A stretch of 13,820 nt of DNA, from contig WFUY01000038.1 in assembly GCA_015484715.1 (NCBI GenBank), forward strand, positions 1-13,820, read 5' to 3'. Below are positions 79-10,846 of the stretch, in pieces. The position numbers and the translations under genes were made by a program. The first letter of the stretch is position 1. Every line of letters begins with the position of its first letter. This stretch comes from Thermoflexales bacterium (GTDB taxonomy: Bacteria; Chloroflexota; Anaerolineae; S140-20). Under the pieces are notes generated by a model that was not told the origin of the DNA, searched no databases, and saw only the letters and a program-made list of their open reading frames with translations.

Positions 79-582
79 ATGACCGTAGCAAAAGGGGTAT
101 TCCTCATCCTCAGTGCCGTTACCCTGGGCAGCGCCCTGGCCGTGGTCACCCAACGAAACCTCTTCCACGCTGCCCTCTTCCTGATCCTTTCCTTCTTCGG
201 TGTCGCAGGACTCTATGTGCTCCTGGATGCGGCTTTCCTGGCCGGCATCCAGGTCCTTATCTACATCGGAGCGATCGCCATCCTTATCATCTTCGCCGTG
301 ATGCTGACCCGGCAGATGATGAGGCCGGTGGAGCCCCAGGTCAACCTCCAGTGGGCTTGGGCCGCCGGCCTTTCCTTTGCCTTTCTGGTCCTCGTCCTGT
401 GGGTAACCCTGCGCATCCCCTGGCCGGAGCAGGTCAGCGTCCCGGTCACCGCCGAGAGCATCACCCGGCTGGGGCAGGCTCTGATGGACCCCCAGCAGTA
501 CGTGCTGCCCTTTGAGGTCGCTTCGGTCCTGCTGTTCGTCGCGCTGGTTGGCTCTGTCGCCATCGCCCGAGAGCGCGACTGA
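79..582 (+). CDS. nuoJ: NADH-quinone oxidoreductase subunit J
   Basis: NuoJ is a small integral subunit of the complex I membrane arm, next to NuoK and the quinone site; its third helix helps couple quinone chemistry to proton movement. The 167-residue product has about five membrane segments. The family core lies at residues 27-77: a NLFHAALFL-type helix, then FLAGIQVLIYIGAIAIL with the conserved Tyr62/Gly64 region where family members show a pi-bulge. The C-terminus (LPFEVASVLLFVALVGSVAIA) is also typical of the family. Length matches usual NuoJ (about 165-185). The ATG at 79 follows GGAG at 69-72. nuoK starts 27 bp downstream, in the standard nuo order. Confidence 0.96.
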   Translation: MTVAKGVFLILSAVTLGSALAVVTQRNLFHAALFLILSFFGVAGLYVLLDAAFLAGIQVLIYIGAIAILIIFAVMLTRQMMRPVEPQVNLQWAWAAGLSFAFLVLVLWVTLRIPWPEQVSVPVTAESITRLGQALMDPQQYVLPFEVASVLLFVALVGSVAIARERD

Positions 583-609: not shown

Positions 610-918
610 ATGATCCCGCTCTCCTGGTACCTCATCGTCGCCACAGCCCTCTTCGCCATCGGGCTGTACGGGGCGTTGAGCCGACGCAACGCCATCGCCA
701 TCCTGATGGGCATCGAACTGATGCTCAACGCCGTCAACATCAACCTGGTCGCCTTCTGGCGCTATCTCACGCCCCACCGGATAACCGGCCAGGCCTTCGC
801 CATCTTCGTCTTCGCTGTGGCCGCCGCCGAGGCGGCCGTCGGCCTGGCGCTGATCATCTCCGTCTACCGCAACCGGGATACGGTGGACGTGGAGAAGATC
901 AACCTGCTGAAATGGTGA
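610..918 (+). CDS. nuoK: NADH-quinone oxidoreductase subunit K
   Basis: NuoK is the 3-helix MrpC-like subunit of the complex I membrane arm and carries two buried glutamates essential for proton translocation. In this 102-residue protein they are visible as Glu36 in [16 protein letters not shown] and Glu74 in [13 protein letters not shown], matching E. coli Glu36 and Glu72. Length is canonical. The start is ATG 610, with GGAG at 599-602 just after the nuoJ stop. A 114-bp gap separates it from nuoL, the longest spacer inside the nuo block. Nothing is missing or unusual. Confidence 0.97.
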
Positions 919-1032: not shown

Positions 1033-3177
1033 ATGGTCAATCTCGAACTGCTCACCTGGCTCGTGCCCCTCTTCCCGGTGCTGGCCTTCGCCGTCATCGT
1101 CCTCTTCACCAACCGCTGGAAACGGCTGAGCCACACGGTGGCCATCGGCTTCCTGCTCGTCTCCTTCGTCCTGGGGATGATCGTCGTCTTCAGCGCCTTC
1201 CGCATCGGGGGCGAGGAGCTGGCCCAGCACCCCATTGTCAGTGCGGTGGACTGGATGCCCACCGGGGAGAGCTTCCTGCGTTTCGGGGTGCTGGTGGACC
1301 CGCTGACGGCGGTCACCCTCTTCTTCGTCCTGATGACACTGGTGGCCATCTTCGTCTACAGCGTGGGCTACATGCGGGGCGACCCCCGTTACTCCCGCTT
1401 CTTCGCCCTCATCTCCCTCTTCGCCACAGGCATGCTGGGGCTGGTGGTCTCTGACAACCTGTTGATGCTCTTCCTCTTCTGGGAGATCATGGGCTTCTGC
1501 TCCTACGCCCTCATCGGCTTCTGGTTCGAGAAGCCTTCGGCCCACAGGGCCGGCGTCAAAGCCTTCATCACCACCCGCGTCGGGGACGTGCTGATGCTCC
1601 TGGGCATCGCCTACCTGTACGCCCTCACCGGAACGCTGAACTTCCGGGAGATCCTGAACGACCCGGCGGTGCTGAAACGGCTGGTGGAGATGAGCAGCCC
1701 CATCGCCGGCCTCTCGGCTGCGGCCCTTGTGGGCCTGCTCCTCTTCGGCGGCACGGTGGGCAAGAGCGCCCAGTTCCCCCTCCACGTCTGGTTGCCCGAC
1801 GCGATGGAAGGTCCGACTCCGGTCAGCGCTTTGATCCACGCCGCGACGATGGTCTCGGCCGGCGTCTACCTGGTCATCCGCACCTTCCCCCTCCTGTCGG
1901 CCGGCCTGGAGCACGGGGGCGGGGCCACGCCGGCCATGTGGGCGATGGGGCTCATCGGGGCCTTCACCGCCTTCCTGGCCGCGACGATGGCCGTGGCCCA
2001 GTTCGACATCAAGCGGGTGCTGGCCTACTCGACCATCAGCCAGTTGGGCTACATGATCGCCGCCCTGGGCGTGGGGGCCTACGTGGCCGCCGCCTTCCAC
2101 CTGATCACCCACGCCTTCTTCAAAGCGCTCCTCTTCCTGGGCTCCGGCTCCGTCATCCACGCGATGGAACACGGCCACCACCACGCGATGGAGCACGCCG
2201 GCCACGGCCACGGAGAGCACGAGGAGCCCTTCGACCCCAACGACATGCGCAACATGGGCGGTCTCCGGGAGAAGATGCCCATCACCTTCTGGACCTTCAC
2301 CATCGGCGGGCTGGCGTTGGCCGGCTTCCCGCTGGTCACGGCCGGCTTCTGGAGCAAGGATGAGATCCTGGCCGAGGCCTTCCACGCCGCCTTCGAGAAG
2401 GGTGAGCCGCTGGGCCTCTTCGTCTACCTGCTGCTGGCCCTGGCCGCGCTCCTGACGGCCTTCTACACGATGCGCCAGATCACGATGACCTTCCTGGGCG
2501 AACCGCGCACCGAGGCGGCCCGCCACGCACCGGAGAGCGACTGGACGATGACGGTGCCCCTCATCTTCCTCTCCATCTTCGCCGTGGGGGCCGGCTTCGT
2601 CGGCGTGCCCGCCGACTTCCCCATCCTGGGGCCGTTGCTGGGCGGGAACCCCCTGCACGAGTTCGTGGGGGCCACGCTGATGACCCACCTGGAGACGCTG
2701 CCCCTCAACTGGCTCCCGGTGCTCATCTCCGTCCTCTTCGCCCTGGGCGGCCTCTGGCTGGGCTACCGGGCTTACGAGGGGAAGCTACGCAGTCCGGAGA
2801 CGCCAGACCCCCTCTCCAACCTGCCCCTGGGCCTCTTCACCCACATGCACCGGCGCTGGTACTTCGACGAGCTGTACGATGTCCTCTTCGTCCGGCCGGC
2901 CAAGGGGATCGCCTTCTTCATCGCCCGCATTGTGGACCGGGGGATCATTGACGGCATCCTGCACTTCACCGCCCGCACCTCGCTGATCCTGGCCGAGGCG
3001 ACCCGCGTCTTCGACCGGGTGGTGCCCAACGGCATCCCCATCGCCGTCGCCGAGGGGATCAAGGGCTTCGGTCGCAGCTTCCGCACCATCCAGACGGGGC
3101 AGGTGCAGAACTACCTACTGCTGGCCCTGGTTAACGCCCTCGTGTTGGCCGTTGTTTATCTGGTGTTGTTTCAATAG
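1033..3177 (+). CDS. nuoL: NADH-quinone oxidoreductase subunit L, with His-rich loop and long lateral helix
   Basis: NuoL is the distal antiporter-like proton channel of complex I. Its C-terminal amphipathic lateral helix (HL) runs along the membrane arm and ends in a final anchoring helix. The 714-residue protein shows the TM5 Glu151 (FLFWEIMGF), TM7 Lys244 (TVGKSAQFPLHVWLPDA), His356/His360/Lys364 in HLITHAFFKALLF, and TM12 Lys442 (GFWSKDEIL). It is longer than usual (about 600-650) for two visible reasons. One is a loop at residues 376-396 with nine His. The other is about 25 extra residues between IIDGI (638-642) and TIQTGQVQNY (685-694), inside HL. The ATG at 1033 has GAGG eight bases upstream. 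The membrane-embedded residues look intact, so a functional pump is expected. Confidence 0.96.
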   Translation: MVNLELLTWLVPLFPVLAFAVIVLFTNRWKRLSHTVAIGFLLVSFVLGMIVVFSAFRIGGEELAQHPIVSAVDWMPTGESFLRFGVLVDPLTAVTLFFVLMTLVAIFVYSVGYMRGDPRYSRFFALISLFATGMLGLVVSDNLLMLFLFWEIMGFCSYALIGFWFEKPSAHRAGVKAFITTRVGDVLMLLGIAYLYALTGTLNFREILNDPAVLKRLVEMSSPIAGLSAAALVGLLLFGGTVGKSAQFPLHVWLPDAMEGPTPVSALIHAATMVSAGVYLVIRTFPLLSAGLEHGGGATPAMWAMGLIGAFTAFLAATMAVAQFDIKRVLAYSTISQLGYMIAALGVGAYVAAAFHLITHAFFKALLFLGSGSVIHAMEHGHHHAMEHAGHGHGEHEEPFDPNDMRNMGGLREKMPITFWTFTIGGLALAGFPLVTAGFWSKDEILAEAFHAAFEKGEPLGLFVYLLLALAALLTAFYTMRQITMTFLGEPRTEAARHAPESDWTMTVPLIFLSIFAVGAGFVGVPADFPILGPLLGGNPLHEFVGATLMTHLETLPLNWLPVLISVLFALGGLWLGYRAYEGKLRSPETPDPLSNLPLGLFTHMHRRWYFDELYDVLFVRPAKGIAFFIARIVDRGIIDGILHFTARTSLILAEATRVFDRVVPNGIPIAVAEGIKGFGRSFRTIQTGQVQNYLLLALVNALVLAVVYLVLFQ
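2158..2220 (+). repeat. Local duplication encoding the His-rich loop of NuoL
   Basis: Two nearly identical units of about 24 bp lie side by side, one starting at 2158 and one at 2182. Each opens with cacgcgatgga and encodes HAMEH followed by Gly/His-rich residues. Together they give nine histidines in residues 376-396, in the loop after FLGSGSVI, where NuoL proteins normally carry a short linker before the MGGL motif. It looks like a recent slippage or duplication in a loop that tolerates insertion. Metal binding is conceivable but unproven. Confidence 0.7.
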
Positions 3178-4797: not shown

Positions 4798-6312
4798 ATG
4801 GCCTTTCCCTTCATCTCGGTGATCATCTTCACCCCTCTCGTCGCGGGGATGCTGATCTTGATGCTCCCCGCCGACCGGAAGGCAGAGATCAAGGTAATCG
4901 CGGCCGCGGCTGCCTTCATCTCCCTGGTCCTCTCCCTCTGGCTCTTCTTCACCTATGACCGGGAGGCAGCTCGACTGGCGACGGACTGGGCAGGGCGAAT
5001 TCAGTTCGAGGAAAAGATCGCCTGGGTGCCCAGCCTGGGGCTCTCCTACCACGTCGGTGGGGACGGCTTCAACATCCCGCTGCTCCTCCTGACCAGCCTG
5101 ATCCTCTTCGCCGGCGTCCTGGTCTCCTGGCACATCGAGCATCGGGCGCGGGAGTTCTTCGCCTTCCTGATGGTCCTGGCCACCGGCATCTTCGGGGGCT
5201 TCGCCGCGCTGGACCTCTTCCTGCTGGTCTTCTTCTACGAGATGGCCATCTTCCCCATCTACGTGATGATCGCCGTCTGGGGGAGCACCCGCAAGGAGTT
5301 CGCGGCGATGAAGCTGACCCTCTACATTCTGGTGGGGAGCATCATCGCCCTGGTCGGCCTCTTCGCCATCTACTTCAAGGCCGGGCTAGGTACCTTTGAC
5401 ATGGTGGAAATCTACCAGAACGGCAACCTGGATGCCACCTTCCAGCGAATCTGGTTCCTGCCCGTCTTCGTCGGCTTCGGCGTCCTGGCCAGCCTCTGGC
5501 CCTTCCACGTCTGGTCCCCCGACGGCTACGTGGCCGCGCCCACCGTCGTCTCGATGCTTCACGCCGGCGTCCTGAAGAACATGGGGGCCTACGTGGCCCT
5601 GCGCACCGGCATCCAGCTCCTGCCCGAAGGGGCGAAGTTCTGGATGCCCTTCATCGTCTTCCTGACGGTGATCAGCATCGTCTACTCGGCGATGGTGGCG
5701 ATGAGCCAGCGGGACTTCAAGTACGTCTTCGGGTTCGCCAGCGTGGGTCATATGGGGATCGTGCTCTTGGGATTCTCCACCCTCAACCTGGTGGGGCTCA
5801 CCGGCACCGGCGTCCAGATGTTCATCCACGGCGCGATGTCGGCCATCTTCTTCTCCATCGTTGGGATGGTCTATGACCGAGCCCACACGCGGGACATCCC
5901 CAGTCTGGGCGGCTTTGTGCGTATCATGCCCATCCCAACCCTCGCCTTCCTCATCGCCGGTCTGAGTTCGATGGGGATGCCGGGGCTGGCCGGCTTCGTG
6001 GCCGAGATCCAGATCTTCATCGGCGTCTGGTTGGCCTACGCCCCCCAGCACTGGTGGTTCCCCTGGATGGCCATCATCGCCTCCAGTGGGGTCATCATCA
6101 CGGCAGCCTACATCATGCGGGTGGCCTACAGCGTCTTCTTCGGTGAGCTCCGGCCGGAGTTCGCCGACCTGCCGGGCGTCACCCTGATGGACAAGATCGC
6201 GGTGACGCTCCTGGCCATCCCGCTCATCGTCATCGGTGTCTATCCTTCGATCATCATGCCGCTGGCTCAGACCGGAGCGGCTTCCATCGCTTCACTCTTC
6301 GGAGGTGCGTAA
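4798..6312 (+). CDS. nuoM: Second NuoM-like subunit of complex I, with altered proton-channel lysines
   Basis: This is a 504-residue, 14-helix NuoM paralogue. It aligns over its length with the preceding NuoM (FFYEMAIFPIYVMIAVWGS, WPFHVWSPDGY, RAHTRDIPSLGG). Glu148 (TM5) and Glu403 (TM12, GLAGFVAEIQIF) are kept. The TM7 lysine of the motif IKVPIWP is replaced by Leu230 (VLASLWP). In TM8 AGVLLKMGAY reads AGVLKNMGAY, so Lys260 sits one position early and Asn261 takes the usual place. Duplicate nuoM genes in a nuo operon are known from several phyla and from the '2M' type of complex I. Here the copy is probably a structural extra module with changed or lost pumping (inference). The start is ATG 4798 with GAGG at 4785-4788. 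The stop abuts the nuoN start. Confidence 0.93.
   Translation: MAFPFISVIIFTPLVAGMLILMLPADRKAEIKVIAAAAAFISLVLSLWLFFTYDREAARLATDWAGRIQFEEKIAWVPSLGLSYHVGGDGFNIPLLLLTSLILFAGVLVSWHIEHRAREFFAFLMVLATGIFGGFAALDLFLLVFFYEMAIFPIYVMIAVWGSTRKEFAAMKLTLYILVGSIIALVGLFAIYFKAGLGTFDMVEIYQNGNLDATFQRIWFLPVFVGFGVLASLWPFHVWSPDGYVAAPTVVSMLHAGVLKNMGAYVALRTGIQLLPEGAKFWMPFIVFLTVISIVYSAMVAMSQRDFKYVFGFASVGHMGIVLLGFSTLNLVGLTGTGVQMFIHGAMSAIFFSIVGMVYDRAHTRDIPSLGGFVRIMPIPTLAFLIAGLSSMGMPGLAGFVAEIQIFIGVWLAYAPQHWWFPWMAIIASSGVIITAAYIMRVAYSVFFGELRPEFADLPGVTLMDKIAVTLLAIPLIVIGVYPSIIMPLAQTGAASIASLFGGA
6301..6306 (+). promoter_or_regulatory. Ribosome binding site of nuoN inside the end of nuoM2
   Basis: GGAGGT lies within the last codons of nuoM2, 6 bases ahead of the GTG at 6313. 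Because the nuoM2 stop (TAA 6310-6312) touches this GTG, the site fixes the nuoN start as GTG 6313 and points to coupled translation of the two subunits. Confidence 0.8.
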
Positions 6313-7761
6313 GTGTCCAGCCTTGACCCTGCGGCGCTGATCAACGTCTTGCCGGAGATCCTGCTGGTGGTGCTGGCCCTGATGGTGATGGGGCTGGATC
6401 TCCTCTGGCCGGCGGGCCGTAAGCGAGACTTAGGGCTCGTCAGCGCAGCCGGCATGATCGTCGTCCTGATCGCCAGTTTCCTCTGGCCCGGCGACGGCCA
6501 GCCCGTCTGGGGGGGGATGATCCAGGCCGATCTGCTGGCCCGCCTCTTCCGCATCCTCTTCCTGGTGGCCGGCATCCTGACCAGCCTGATCTCGATGGAC
6601 ATGAAGGGGCTGAAGCAGGAAGGGGAGTACTACGCGATGATCATCATCGCCACGATGGGCATGGGGCTGATGGCCACTGCCAATGACTTCCTGATGCTCT
6701 ACGTGGCGATGGAGATGACCAGCATCACCCAGTACCTGCTGGTGGGCTATATGCGTCGGGAGGCCCGCTCCGTCGAAGCGGGCATCAAGTACTTCCTCTT
6801 CGGGGCCGTGACCTCGACGGTGATGCTCTTCGGTCTCAGCTTCTTCTACGGCTTCACCGGGCAGACCAACTACGCCGGCGTGCGGATGGGGCTCTTCAAC
6901 CCGGCCATTGACACCGGCGCGGTGCTGGTCGCCTTGATCCTGATCGCCGTCGGCTTTGGCTTCAAGATCGCCGCCGTTCCCTTCCACTTCTGGACTCCCG
7001 ACACCTATGAAGGAGCGCCCACCCCGGTCACGGCCTTCATCTCGGTGGCCTCGAAGGCGGCCGGCTTCGCCGTCCTCTTCCGGGTTCTCAACGTCGTCTT
7101 CCCGGTCGGCGTCCCCCAGAGCGAGTGGACCAACCTGATGGAGACGCTGGCCATCGTGACGATGACGCTGGGGAACGTGCTGGCCATCCCCCAGACGAAC
7201 ATCAAGCGGTTGCTGGCCTACTCCAGCATCGCCCAGGCCGGCTACGTCCTCATCGGCGTGGCGGCCGTCTCCAGCCTGGGCGTTGCTTCCGCTCTCTTCT
7301 ACCTGGCCGTCTACGTCATCACCAACATCGGGGCCTTCGCCGGTGTCATCGCCGTGGCCAATCGGCTGGGCTCTGACGACATCCGGGCCTTCGCCGGCCT
7401 GAGCCGCCGCTCCCCCTACCTGGCGCTGATGATCCTCGTCGCCTTCCTCTCGCTGGGAGGCGTGCCCCCCACCGCCGGCTTCGTGGGCAAGCTCTTCCTG
7501 TTCCAGGCCGCCGTGGGGCAGGGCCTCATCCGGCTGGCCGTCATCGGCGTCCTCAACGTCATCGTCGGCCTCTACTACTACCTGATGGTCCTCAAGGTGA
7601 TGTATGTGGACCGGGGCGAGGAAGAGGTGGAGGTGCCGGTGAGCGCCCCTCTGGCCTGGACCCTGGCGGTGTCGGCGGCGGGGGTGATGCTTCTTGGCAT
7701 TTTCGCTCACCCCTGGTATAATATCGCCCTGCGTGCCGCTGCTGTGCTGTTCCCAGGGTGA
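6313..7761 (+). CDS. nuoN: NADH-quinone oxidoreductase subunit N
   Basis: NuoN is the antiporter-like complex I subunit nearest to NuoK. The 482-residue product has the expected charged residues in its membrane helices: Glu134 in TM5 (LYVAMEMTSITQYLLVGY), Lys218 in TM7 (GFGFKIAAVPFHFWTPD), Lys248 in TM8 (SVASKAAGFAVLFR) and Lys393 in TM12 (TAGFVGKLFLF). Length matches the family. Translation starts at GTG 6313 directly after the nuoM2 stop, with GGAGGT at 6301-6306. It is the last nuo gene, as in the standard order. A near-consensus promoter (7694-7722) sits inside its last 70 bp, and a TA-like pair begins 13 bp after its stop. Confidence 0.97.
   Translation: MSSLDPAALINVLPEILLVVLALMVMGLDLLWPAGRKRDLGLVSAAGMIVVLIASFLWPGDGQPVWGGMIQADLLARLFRILFLVAGILTSLISMDMKGLKQEGEYYAMIIIATMGMGLMATANDFLMLYVAMEMTSITQYLLVGYMRREARSVEAGIKYFLFGAVTSTVMLFGLSFFYGFTGQTNYAGVRMGLFNPAIDTGAVLVALILIAVGFGFKIAAVPFHFWTPDTYEGAPTPVTAFISVASKAAGFAVLFRVLNVVFPVGVPQSEWTNLMETLAIVTMTLGNVLAIPQTNIKRLLAYSSIAQAGYVLIGVAAVSSLGVASALFYLAVYVITNIGAFAGVIAVANRLGSDDIRAFAGLSRRSPYLALMILVAFLSLGGVPPTAGFVGKLFLFQAAVGQGLIRLAVIGVLNVIVGLYYYLMVLKVMYVDRGEEEVEVPVSAPLAWTLAVSAAGVMLLGIFAHPWYNIALRAAAVLFPG
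7694..7722 (+). promoter_or_regulatory. Near-consensus extended -10 sigma70-type promoter inside nuoN
   Basis: TTGGCA (7694-7699, five of six -35 consensus bases) is followed after exactly 17 bp by TATAAT (7717-7722, six of six). A TGG directly precedes the -10, giving the extended -10 TGn motif. AT-rich hexamers of this kind stand out in the surrounding GC-rich coding DNA. Transcription would begin near 7729, leaving a leader of about 45 nt before the DUF433 start at 7775. It could transcribe the TA pair and the downstream atp genes independently of the nuo promoter. Confidence 0.72.
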
Positions 7762-7774
7762 TAAAGGGAAGAAG

Positions 7775-8077
7775 ATGGGAACCAACGGAAGAACGGTCCA
7801 GCGCACCTCCCATCCTCACATTGTCAAGATCGAAGGGGTGTGTGGGGGAGAGGCAGTTATAGAAGGAACGCGCATCGCCGTCTGGCACATCGTCGGTTAT
7901 TATTACAAGGTGGGAATGTCTGTAGAGGAAATCCTGGCGGACTGGGACGCCCTCACGCCAGCGCAGGTGTTTGACGCTCTGGCATACTACCATGACCACC
8001 GGGAAGAGATAGAGCAGGCGTTGTGGGAGAACAGCTACGAGTACTGGCGCGAGCACTTTGCCCATGCCGTCCCGTGA
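7775..8077 (+). CDS. DUF433 domain protein, putative antitoxin
   Basis: This 100-residue protein has a near full-length DUF433 domain. Visible features are GVCGGEAVIEGTRIAVW (residues 21-37), with the GTRI signature, and a helix-turn-helix-like half, EEILADWDALTPAQVFDALAYY (51-72). DUF433 proteins are commonly encoded just before DUF5615 PIN-like proteins and are treated as their antitoxins, often DNA-binding and autoregulatory. The next gene here is exactly such a partner, overlapping by 14 bp. ATG 7775 is chosen, with GGGAAGAAG ahead of it. A longer frame opening with TTG at 7694 is unlikely because that codon lies in the -35 box and the extension has no family match. The sequence is less GC-biased than the flanking nuo genes, hinting at acquisition. 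Function rests on family and neighbourhood. Confidence 0.85.
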   Translation: MGTNGRTVQRTSHPHIVKIEGVCGGEAVIEGTRIAVWHIVGYYYKVGMSVEEILADWDALTPAQVFDALAYYHDHREEIEQALWENSYEYWREHFAHAVP

Positions 8078-8426
8078 CGCTCCCAAGCTACACCTAAACG
8101 AGCACCTCTCCCCTCGCTTGGCTTCTCAGTTGCGCCGGCACGGCTTTGATGTGACAACCTCTCGGGAGGCCGGTCTGCTGTCCATCACTGATGAAGAGCA
8201 AATGGCTTATGCCGCTGCAGAGCAGCGGGCCATTGTCACCTTCAACGTCCGCGACTTCTCATATCTGCACAACCAGTACCTGGCAGAGAACAAGGAGCAT
8301 TGGGGAATCATCTTTTCAACCCAGGAGCCCATCAGCGTCTTGTTTCACCGTCTGTTGCGGCTGCTGAATTCTGTGACCGCTGAGGAACTGAAGAATCAAG
8401 TCCGCTGGCTCAACGAATTTCAATGA
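8064..8426 (+). CDS. DUF5615 PIN-like protein, putative toxin ribonuclease
   Basis: This 120-residue protein is of the DUF5615 (PIN-like) family, thought to be VapC-like RNases paired with DUF433 antitoxins. Family hallmarks are LHLNEHLSPRLASQL (residues 9-23), the middle acidic cluster Asp43-Glu44-Glu45, and IVTFNVRDFSYLH (57-69) with Asp64. The first acidic position, usually Asp in LDE, is Asn12 here. This occurs in some subfamilies as I recall them, but it weakens any claim of nuclease activity. ATG 8064 lies inside the DUF433 gene (14-bp overlap), suggesting translational coupling; a TTG two codons earlier is less likely. The stop is 1 bp before the atpZ/I-like start, so the pair is embedded in the operon. 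Confidence 0.85.
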   Translation: MPSRDAPKLHLNEHLSPRLASQLRRHGFDVTTSREAGLLSITDEEQMAYAAAEQRAIVTFNVRDFSYLHNQYLAENKEHWGIIFSTQEPISVLFHRLLRLLNSVTAEELKNQVRWLNEFQ

Positions 8427-8427
8427 C

Positions 8428-8721
8428 ATGAGCGCACCGCTCCCGCCCCGGCGCAACCTGCGGCGGGTTGCCCGTAATCTGACGCTGGCCAGCGTCGCTT
8501 CCCAAGTCGGCTTTGTCACCATCGGCATCATCCTGGTGGCGCTGCTGGTGGGATTGTGGCTGGATCGGGAGCTGGAGACCCGGCCCTGGGCCACCATCGT
8601 TTGCCTGTTGTGTAGCGTTCCCCTCAGCGTCGCCAGCATCGTCTGGCTTGCCCTTTCCATTGTCTCGCAGATTCAACCGCCAGAACGACCAACCCATCGC
8701 CAACGAGAAGGAGAGCAGTAG
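8428..8721 (+). CDS. atpZ: AtpZ/AtpI-family Fo-associated membrane protein
   Basis: This 97-residue protein has a basic N-terminus (residues 8-16) and two membrane helices, about 22-46 (ASVASQVGFVTIGIILVALL) and 54-81. A WLDRELETRPW linker lies between them. This is the usual architecture of the AtpZ/AtpI family, which sits at the head of atp operons and is linked to c-ring assembly or Mg2+ handling. Position right before atpB supports the call; AtpZ versus AtpI cannot be decided firmly. The start at ATG 8428 follows the DUF5615 stop by one base and lacks a clear Shine-Dalgarno, so re-initiation is likely. Its TAG stop shares its last base with the GTG start of atpB. Confidence 0.82.
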   Translation: MSAPLPPRRNLRRVARNLTLASVASQVGFVTIGIILVALLVGLWLDRELETRPWATIVCLLCSVPLSVASIVWLALSIVSQIQPPERPTHRQREGEQ

Positions 8722-9716
8722 TGTCCCCACGGAAAAAGCGAATTCTTCAAGGACTTGTCGGGCTGATCGTCCTGGTCCTTCTCCCTGCCCTGCTCAGCTC
8801 GGGCTTCCTGGTGAGCCTGGGCATCAACCCCCTTTTCGGCATCTTTCCCAAACCGGCTATGCCGGTCGTCTCCCTGACCCCTGAACCTCTCCCCGGCCTG
8901 GGGATCACCAATTCGATCCTGGCCACACTGTTGGTGGACGTCGTCCTGTTGGCCATCGTCTTCGCCGGCACCCGCAAGCTGCGGGCCGGTTCTCCCGACG
9001 CTTGGGTTCCTACCGGGCTGCAGAACGCCCTGGAAGCGGTTCTGGAGACCCTCTACAATCTCGGAGAGAGCGTGCTGGGTGAGCGCACCCGCCAACTCTT
9101 CTGGCTAGGGGCGACCATCTTCCTCTTCCTGCTGATCGCCAACTGGAGCGAGTTGGTCCCCTTCGTTGAGAGCGTTGGCTTTATCGAGGAAGTGCACGGA
9201 GAAGATGTAGAAGGGTACGCCAAAAGTTCCTTCCTGGGCATCCCTGCCGTCGTCCCCCCTGAAGAGGACGAACCTGGCGAGTACACCCTGATCCCCTTGT
9301 TTCGGGTCCCCACCACGGACCTCAACCTCCCGCTGGCCCTGGCCCTCATCTCCGTCTTTATGACCCAGGTCTACGGCGTTCGGGCCCTGGGGGTCAAGGG
9401 CTACCTGGCCCGCTTCTTCCCCATCGGCAGCATCAAGAAGAAGCGATGGATGGGCCTCATTGACATATTCGTGGGGATCCTGGAGCTCATCAGCGAGGTG
9501 GCCAAGATCATCTCCTTCACCTTCCGACTCTTCGGCAACCTCTTCGCCGGTGGAGTCCTGCTCTTCGTGATGGCTTTTCTGATTCCTCTCGTCTTCGTCG
9601 GCGGAGTGGTCTTCTACGGCCTGGAGCTCTTCGTTGGGCTGATCCAGGCTTTTATTTTCATGATGCTCACCTTCGCCTTCACCGCGTCGGCGACGATGGA
9701 GCACGGTGAGCATTGA
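8721..9716 (+). CDS. atpB: F-type ATP synthase subunit a
   Basis: Subunit a forms the two proton half-channels against the c-ring. The 331-residue product contains the essential arginine, Arg269 in SFTFRLFGNLFAGG (matching E. coli Arg210), and Gln309 in GLIQAFIFMMLTFAF (matching E. coli Gln252). It also has the family motifs LLIANWSELVPF (137-148) and TTDLNLPLALAL (198-209). An acidic extracytoplasmic segment (about 155-188, rich in Glu/Asp) lengthens the protein beyond typical bacterial a subunits (about 240-280). The N-terminus has a Lys/Arg patch before TM1. GTG 8721 is the start, with GAGAAGGAGA at 8705-8714, and it overlaps the previous stop by one base. Confidence 0.95.
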   Translation: MSPRKKRILQGLVGLIVLVLLPALLSSGFLVSLGINPLFGIFPKPAMPVVSLTPEPLPGLGITNSILATLLVDVVLLAIVFAGTRKLRAGSPDAWVPTGLQNALEAVLETLYNLGESVLGERTRQLFWLGATIFLFLLIANWSELVPFVESVGFIEEVHGEDVEGYAKSSFLGIPAVVPPEEDEPGEYTLIPLFRVPTTDLNLPLALALISVFMTQVYGVRALGVKGYLARFFPIGSIKKKRWMGLIDIFVGILELISEVAKIISFTFRLFGNLFAGGVLLFVMAFLIPLVFVGGVVFYGLELFVGLIQAFIFMMLTFAFTASATMEHGEH

Positions 9717-10034
<318 letters not shown>

Positions 10035-10052
10035 TGTGCCCGGATCCCACAC

Positions 10053-10076
10053 GTTCCCGCGAGTTCCTGCGAACTC
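10053..10076. repeat. Tandem 10-mer and hairpin just ahead of the atpF ribosome binding site
   Basis: GTTCCCGCGA (10053-10062) is followed at once by GTTCCTGCGA (10063-10072), nine of ten bases identical. Overlapping them, GAGTTC (10061-10066) and GAACTC (10071-10076) form a 6-bp stem with a CTGC loop. The atpF Shine-Dalgarno AAGGAGG (10079-10085) begins two bases later, so the stem may tune access to it. Confidence 0.55.
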
Positions 10077-10093
10077 TCAAGGAGGAATGAATC

Positions 10094-10846
10094 TTGGCAC
10101 AAATCTTGGCACAGCTAGGCATTAACCCGATGTTCCTGCTCTTTCAGATCGTCAACTTCATCGTGTTGGCGGTCTTATTGCGCATCTTCCTCTACAAGCC
10201 TGTGATGGGGATGCTGGAACAGCGGCGGCAGCGCATCGAGAAGGGTCTGGAGGACGCCCGGGCCGCCGAGGAGGCGCGGGCCAAAGCCGAAGAAGAGCGT
10301 CAACGCATCCTGGACCAAGCCTGGGACGAGGCCCGCCGTATCACCGGTGAGGCGACCCGACAAGCTGAGGAAGTCGCCAAGCGGATCGAGGCCGAAGCTC
10401 GCAAGCAGGCCCGCGAGATCCTGGAACGGGCTCAACGGGACGCAGAACTGGAGCGTCAAAAAGCCCTGGGAGCCCTGCGGGACCAGATCGCCTTGCTCTC
10501 TATCGCCGCCGCCAACCGGATCCTCCAGGAGACCCTGGATGAACAGCGGCAGATGGCCCTGGTCCGCTCCTTCGTCAGCGGCATCGAGGCGGGCAAGATC
10601 CAGGTCCTGGAAGAAGAAGAGGAGCTGGAGGGCGAGAAGGCGGAGGTCATCAGCGCCGTGCCTCTGGAGGACGACGAGAAAGCGCTCTACACCGAGAAGC
10701 TGCGCGAACGGCTGGGAGAGGAGGTCACCATCGAGTTCAAAGTGGATCCCAGCCTGATGGGGGGCGTGGTCCTGCGGGTCGGCGACCGGGTGATTGACAA
10801 CAGCATGGCCGGCCGGTTGGAAGCCCTGCGCCGCGCACTGGTCTAG
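10094..10846 (+). CDS. atpF: ATP synthase subunit b fused to the C-terminal domain of subunit delta
   Basis: This 250-residue peripheral-stalk protein has three parts. Residues 11-33 are the membrane anchor (FLLFQIVNFIVLAVLLRIFLY). Residues 38-160 form the long charged coiled coil of subunit b, ending in ALGALRDQIALLSIAAANRIL. After an acidic linker (173-182), residues 183-250 read as the C-terminal domain of delta, with AEVISAVPL, a VDPSLMGGVVLRVGD signature and a GRLEALRRAL end. The six-helix N-terminal domain of delta (about 105 residues), which binds alpha, is absent. b-delta fusions are known in Actinobacteria, but those keep more of delta. The start is TTG 10094, 8 bases after AAGGAGG; a second in-frame TTG lies at 10106. 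This is the last gene before the terminator; no atpH, A, G, D or C follows. Confidence 0.9.
   Translation: MAQILAQLGINPMFLLFQIVNFIVLAVLLRIFLYKPVMGMLEQRRQRIEKGLEDARAAEEARAKAEEERQRILDQAWDEARRITGEATRQAEEVAKRIEAEARKQAREILERAQRDAELERQKALGALRDQIALLSIAAANRILQETLDEQRQMALVRSFVSGIEAGKIQVLEEEEELEGEKAEVISAVPLEDDEKALYTEKLRERLGEEVTIEFKVDPSLMGGVVLRVGDRVIDNSMAGRLEALRRALV

Follow-up and report, generated by a model that had tools for sequence, protein, structure and literature searches.

The question raised by this locus is how an antiporter-like subunit of respiratory complex I may work once it has lost the lysine of transmembrane helix 7 (TM7); in the leading models, proton transfer in each such subunit is triggered by its Glu-Lys ion pair, which acts as a switch. 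The stretch of DNA analysed (referred to as the window; 13,820 nucleotides of a Thermoflexales bacterium, assembly GCA_015484715.1, contig WFUY01000038.1) belongs, as contig C38, to a genome of 70.55% completeness and encodes two adjoining NuoM proteins, NuoM1 and NuoM2. An earlier note on this DNA had claimed that NuoM2 has leucine at the site of the TM7 lysine and a TM8 lysine displaced by one position, and that it keeps two glutamates. Translation and alignment reproduced all of the residues named (Leu230, Lys260, Asn261, Glu148 and Glu403). The positions concerned are listed below with their equivalents in Escherichia coli NuoM; the term Leu-type is our own and is defined by alignment column 230.

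4798..6312, + strand: NuoM2, a Leu-type NuoM of 504 amino acids
5239..5241, + strand: Glu148 codon, the retained TM5 glutamate (E. coli Glu144)
5485..5487, + strand: Leu230 codon (CTG), the TM7 lysine site, aligned without gaps to E. coli Lys234 and NuoM1 Lys239
5515..5517, + strand: Ser240 codon, the site of the presumed gating leucine (E. coli Leu244)
5560..5562, + strand: His255 codon in TM8 (E. coli NuoM Leu259), in the column of the NuoL switch histidine
5575..5580, + strand: Lys260-Asn261, the shifted TM8 lysine (E. coli Leu264-Lys265)
6004..6006, + strand: Glu403 codon, the retained TM12 glutamate (E. coli Glu407)

In the alignment, Asn261 is the counterpart of NuoM1 Lys270 and E. coli Lys265, with Lys260 one position early, and His318 and His344 correspond to E. 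coli His322 and His348. The ion pair between the TM5 glutamate and the TM7 lysine is absent from NuoM2, as Glu148 is there and the lysine is replaced by Leu230. NuoM2 scores 417 bits on TIGR01972 (NuoM, ND4 family), against a cut-off of 263.8. Judged by sequence family the protein is still a NuoM, for which the ion-pair mechanism may not be assumed. An AlphaFold2 model (predicted local distance difference score 94.7, predicted template modelling score 0.94) has TM7 broken at residues 229-238, with residue 230 at the helix break, and TM8 at 249-273; among solved structures it is best matched by NuoM-type chains from complex I and NDH-1.

The replacement is shared by all homologues that were listed. 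Leu230 is present in each of the best 120 of 7412 homologues of the window NuoM2, and likewise in 120 of the 120 matches listed (of thousands) for the NuoM2 of a Chloroflexaceae-like locus (L097) and for the protein of L106, the only NuoM found there, some relatives of which are named Dehalococcoidia. Pooled, the three queries gave 360 distinct homologues listed, every one with Leu230, as expected from the claim that this is a feature of the lineage. Among the carriers with a species name are Chloroflexus islandicus and Oscillochloris trichoides DG-6 (P0252, P0282), and the closest protein with a named source among the matches listed, P0005 from a Chloroflexi metagenome-assembled genome, is 97% identical. 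A strict DNA motif of the Leu-type TM7 was found in 90 of 400 Chloroflexota genomes, with the reversed control in none among the matches listed; this number is probably a lower bound, since the motif misses the window's own variant. Genome searches centred on Chloroflexota, and both Pseudomonadota loci that were fetched (L005 and L006) carry lysine.

For a comparison of whole proteins, 149 NuoM open reading frames (ORFs) were collected from 107 sources (the window, L001-L006 and L067-L166). One hundred of these regions were hand-picked by their score to NuoM2 from searches of 400 and of 41 genomes, so that proportions among the rows do not represent prevalence. The set consists of 42 NuoM2, 42 NuoM1, 24 proteins of the Leu-type that are the only NuoM found in their stretch (sole-Leu) and 41 sole NuoM proteins with lysine (sole-Lys). 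At column 230 the 66 Leu-type rows, i.e. NuoM2 and sole-Leu, have leucine in 65 cases and threonine in one, and the other 83 all have lysine. Because this column defines the type, the independent evidence is a tree built without the region. Such a tree was made from 128 rows with columns 215-275 excluded, by a quick method without bootstrap; 15 loci (22 of the 149 rows) were omitted by hand because they were judged to be near copies or to lie on short contigs or at contig ends, while all counts use the full 149. Its 56 Leu-type rows form one clade (100 in the Shimodaira-Hasegawa-like approximate likelihood ratio test, SH-aLRT), implying one state change at column 230, and this clade splits into NuoM2 (35 rows, SH-aLRT 99) and sole-Leu (21 rows, 97). 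The NuoM1 rows form a separate clade (SH-aLRT 99), and NuoM2 therefore seems not to be a recent copy of the adjoining NuoM1. As to the origin of the two-NuoM operon, a NuoN tree of 41 rows gave p 0.135 in the approximately unbiased test for two-NuoM plus sole-Leu, and either NuoM may be the newcomer; the first NuoL and NuoN trees left out 18 loci and short ORFs, and the second set comprised 40 hand-picked loci. Column 230 ranks 45th of 504 in entropy, by which Leu230 looks selected rather than drifting. We consider it very highly probable that Leu230 is a real lineage feature and that the observation is correct, and, as far as its sequence tells, NuoM2 is a member of an old NuoM subfamily spanning many families of the phylum Chloroflexota.

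The loss of the lysine is accompanied by changes in other columns of TM5-TM8. Tyr147 is found in 63 of the 66 Leu-type rows (Trp in 75 of 83 Lys-type), Leu177 in 60 (Ile in the window; Thr in all 83 Lys-type), Gly232 in 53 (Ser in the window; Pro in 65 of 83), Ser240 in 62 (Leu, the presumed proton-entry gate, in 82 of 83) and Gly243 in all 66 (Ala in 81 of 83). The earlier note had proposed looking for a substitute lysine or histidine near residues 226-261, and such a residue is indeed present, as His255 occurs in 59 of 66 Leu-type rows and in none of the 83 Lys-type rows. When the columns were screened for an ionizable residue in at least 80% of one type and in less than 40% of the other, those at 128, 230, 246 and 309 proved to be lost in the Leu-type, and the only ones gained were His255 and Arg441. 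Together, the companion columns and this screen suggest that TM5-TM8 were rebuilt around the lost ion pair. Much of the remaining relay is retained: column 148 has Glu in 61, Asp in 4 and Gly in 1 of the 66 rows, Lys172, His318 and Glu403 are each present in all 66, the TM8 lysine also in all 66 when Lys260 is counted, and the N-side input His244 in 59. Another lysine in TM7 taking the same place, which the note had named as grounds for withdrawing its claim, was rejected, since residues 219-241 contain no Lys, Arg, Asp or Glu in any of the 66 Leu-type rows.

Some variation around these columns may be mentioned. The NuoM2 proteins of L002, L077 and L086 combine Leu255 with Glu259 (GVEMK), in which a glutamate one helical turn further along possibly replaces the TM8 histidine. 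L074 has Thr230 together with Leu255, and L119, L121 and L124 have Ala255 together with Asp148. In the Chloroflexus-like two-NuoM loci (L083-L103), position 242 of NuoM2 is mostly Thr, not Asp (SPTGH); Thr is found there in 17 of 42 NuoM2 overall.

The displaced TM8 lysine is real in the window but is a local trait, with most other Leu-type proteins keeping the ordinary one. Lys260 replaces Lys261 in 7 of 42 NuoM2, in none of the 24 sole-Leu proteins and in 2 of the best 120 of 7412 homologues of the window NuoM2, while 59 of the 66 Leu-type rows, not including the window NuoM2, have the lysine at the exact E. coli Lys265 column. Position 261 in the seven shifted rows is Asn (3) or Ala (4). 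Six of them make up the window's own subclade (support 96 in the NuoM tree), and the seventh, L104 with Lys260-Asn261, lies elsewhere, in the Chloroflexus-like branch, so that the shift seems to have arisen twice. By sequence comparison it is a side trait, narrower than Leu230.

In 24 stretches the Leu-type protein is the only NuoM found, and NuoL was detected in 23 of these (not in L127). The two kinds of operon differ in the amphipathic helix of NuoL. Measured against E. coli residues 520-590 (71 residues), the helix segment has 98 residues in the window and a median of 97 (range 82-101) in the 40 NuoL of two-NuoM operons, as against 72 residues in all 23 NuoL of sole-Leu operons and a median of 72 in the 39 of sole-Lys operons. 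The longer helix in two-NuoM operons fits a real fourth subunit. In the sole-Leu operons the key residues of NuoL and NuoN are canonical, with the exceptions of one Arg217 and one Ser247 among 24 NuoN and of Tyr at His334 in 6 of 23 NuoL; NuoN position 305 is variable in all groups. A further NuoM-like match elsewhere in the genome was found for 22 of the 24 sole-Leu genomes (E up to 1e-45), and the seven of these that were read (L129, L142, L146, L156, L157, L158 and L160) are Lys-type.

How might such a subunit work? In the wave model, opening of the pair formed by the TM5 glutamate and the TM7 lysine pushes a proton away from the TM8 lysine and on to the residue in TM12 (PMC9271201, PMC11496545; here and below, all PMC papers except PMC3046159 are cited from excerpts), and conduction in isolated Nqo13 is faster when the ion pair is opened (PMC11496545). 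In NuoL, His254 links the Glu-Lys pair, the N-side input and the P-side exit and has been proposed as the gate of proton transfer, its conformation B pointing toward the ion pair (PMC13358369). Hydration is gated by a leucine, L214 (PMC13220270) or L242 (PMC9802314), which we equate with E. coli Leu244 from the spacing to Trp and His. Since the Leu-type has lost both the lysine of the pair and the gating leucine, and has gained a histidine that aligns with NuoL His254 (matched by sequence alignment, not by distances), we infer that a Leu-type NuoM may still conduct protons, gated by the TM8 histidine instead of the Glu-Lys pair; the chances of this are about even when set against the other readings together. 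The replacement of lysine by leucine would break the pair for good, with the TM5-TM8 bundle rebuilt; His255 could take over the gating where the N-side input, the adjoining subunit and the central axis, made up of the TM8 Lys, His318 and Glu403, meet; and with Ser240 the input path may be more hydrated than it is in ordinary NuoM. Such a subunit, a NuoM by build but with a histidine gate like that of NuoL, would hand on the charge wave and would probably also move a proton across the membrane. Of the two explanations offered by the earlier note, a different proton path agrees with the changes at 255 and 240, and a non-pumping spacer is less well supported, as the remaining relay residues are kept and 24 stretches have the Leu-type protein as the only NuoM found. 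The conserved Glu148, His318 and Glu403 and the near-invariant Leu230 likewise argue against a dead spacer, and that the Leu-type subunit is under selection is highly probable. That sole-Leu complexes are natural lysine-less pumps, and so show the TM7 lysine to be replaceable, is a tentative extension that we rate as rather doubtful.

Several observations weigh against histidine-gated pumping. Paracoccus Nqo13 cannot do without the ion pair, and catalysis there is all but lost upon the L242A substitution (PMC9802314). The B conformation of the NuoL histidine depends on protonation of Lys229 (PMC13358369), the counterpart of which is the very residue lost in NuoM2, and the NuoL partners Ser150 and Lys342 are unmatched (Ile154 and Ser348, by eye on the alignment). 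The window NuoM2 itself has Tyr244 instead of the usual N-side input histidine (Tyr in 7 of 66), and His255 is missing from 7 of 66 Leu-type rows (4 Leu, 3 Ala), only 3 of which have Glu259. The companion changes map to a single stem branch, which makes their co-occurrence one event. Finally, the NuoL marker is not perfectly clean, as three sole-Lys NuoL of ordinary length (L152, L159 and L162; 654 amino acids) have a segment of 102 residues, which may be an alignment effect.

Among the rival readings, the most serious is that the Leu-type passes on an electrostatic or conformational signal and takes up no proton, which would put H+/2e- below the NuoM count. It is suggested by the essential role of the ion pair and gating leucine in the Nqo13 studied, and by the moved TM8 lysine and the Tyr244 variants, as if the exact form mattered less; yet the uptake residues, needless for a pure relay, are mostly kept (His244 and Lys261, 59 of 66 each), and 24 stretches yielded no NuoM besides a Leu-type protein; we regard this reading as possible though somewhat unlikely. 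A change of ion, or tuning to reverse electron transfer in complexes independent of NADH, has still less in its favour and is improbable. The regions upstream of the sole-Leu operons L208, L209 and L211 do show adjoining B, C, D and H without an E, F or G match, and a 12-gene two-NuoM cluster has been described in Chloroflexus aggregans (PMC8004040). However, Chloroflexota sole-Lys stretches in which C and H were detected are equally without an E, F or G match between them (in searches with E. coli proteins only), so that this trait does not follow the leucine, which leaves loss of the NADH module unsupported as the cause, and the gained ionizable residues are His255 and Arg441, with no carboxylate. 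A Rhodospirillaceae locus (L005) shows G before H.

That NuoM2 is a spare copy losing its function would account for the loss of a residue called essential, but is very improbable given that leucine hardly varies, that conservation extends to the other relay residues, and that the clade is present in many families and occurs without a second NuoM. An error of alignment, frame or sequencing might have been suspected of a claim first made by eye on one sequence, and is contradicted by an alignment free of gaps between fixed motifs, a reading frame that stays open for 504 codons, a change from Lys to CTG that needs at least two base substitutions, and leucine in 360 of the 360 homologues listed, including the nearly identical P0005; we give it hardly any credence. 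On these conservation counts sequencing error, misalignment and a relaxed paralogue were rejected. Histidine-gated pumping is the reading that we favour.

The order of the complex I genes in the window, from ORFs and profile matches, is nuoJ-K-L-M1-M2-N; apart from NuoM2, their products are:

79..582, + strand: NuoJ (Pfam PF00499)
610..918, + strand: NuoK (Pfam PF00420)
1033..3177, + strand: NuoL, 714 amino acids, with a longer C-terminal amphipathic helix
3211..4746, + strand: NuoM1, a Lys-type NuoM (Lys239, Lys270)
6313..7761, + strand: NuoN

The source genome has a second operon, of the Lys-type and with a weak NuoG match, on contig C143. Between nuoN and the ATP synthase F0 genes lie a DUF433 gene and an overlapping DUF5615 gene (7754-8426, + strand), an arrangement typical of toxin-antitoxin pairs. 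The F0 genes (8428-10846, + strand) encode an ATPase_gene1-like protein, AtpB, a likely c subunit (75 amino acids, 9807-10034, assigned by eye) and an AtpF-AtpH fusion (PF00430 and PF00213). They are followed by a HEAT-repeat gene on the opposite strand, with no long plus-strand atpA there.

A pump-like subunit in which lysine is replaced by leucine with a histidine nearby suggests a pump module built to work without the lysine. A large natural clade of this kind, including operons with a Leu-type protein as the only NuoM found, offers a ready test of ion-pair models, and counting NuoM genes is not enough to credit the two-NuoM complexes of Chloroflexota with the extra proton that has been assumed. 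Two-NuoM complex I was already known (Chadwick et al. 2018, as cited in PMC7117926, PMC9040806 and PMC8004040), whereas the Leu-type subfamily, its sole-NuoM branch and the companions His255 and Ser240 are added here, although earlier mention is possible. The TM7 lysine of NuoM2 is unmentioned in the passages on such complexes in these three papers; a term search of PMC3046159 found neither Lys234 nor Lys265; and no title or beginning of an abstract was found that reports the loss, which is weak evidence, as few subscription papers were covered.

Compared with canonical NuoM/ND4/Nqo13 (E. coli, TIGR01972), the Leu-type is without the TM7 lysine, has serine for the gating leucine, has Thr177 and Trp147 replaced and has gained His255. 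The window resembles the two-NuoM complex I of Chloroflexi and Nitrospira both in the order nuoL-M1-M2-N and in the lengthened NuoL helix. It differs in that the citing literature, in the passages considered, treats NuoM2 as an extra pump that translocates, or may translocate, an extra proton (PMC7117926 and PMC8004040, after Chadwick et al. 2018), and in that the Leu-type also occurs outside two-NuoM operons. With the histidine switch of NuoL and MrpA, NuoM2 shares a TM8 histidine in the NuoL His254 column; NuoL, however, keeps the TM7 lysine and Lys342, of which NuoM2 has neither, and most Leu-type proteins keep the NuoM TM8 lysine. As the partners Lys342 and Lys229 are missing, NuoM2 may at most work like the histidine-switch subunits, without being a member of that group.
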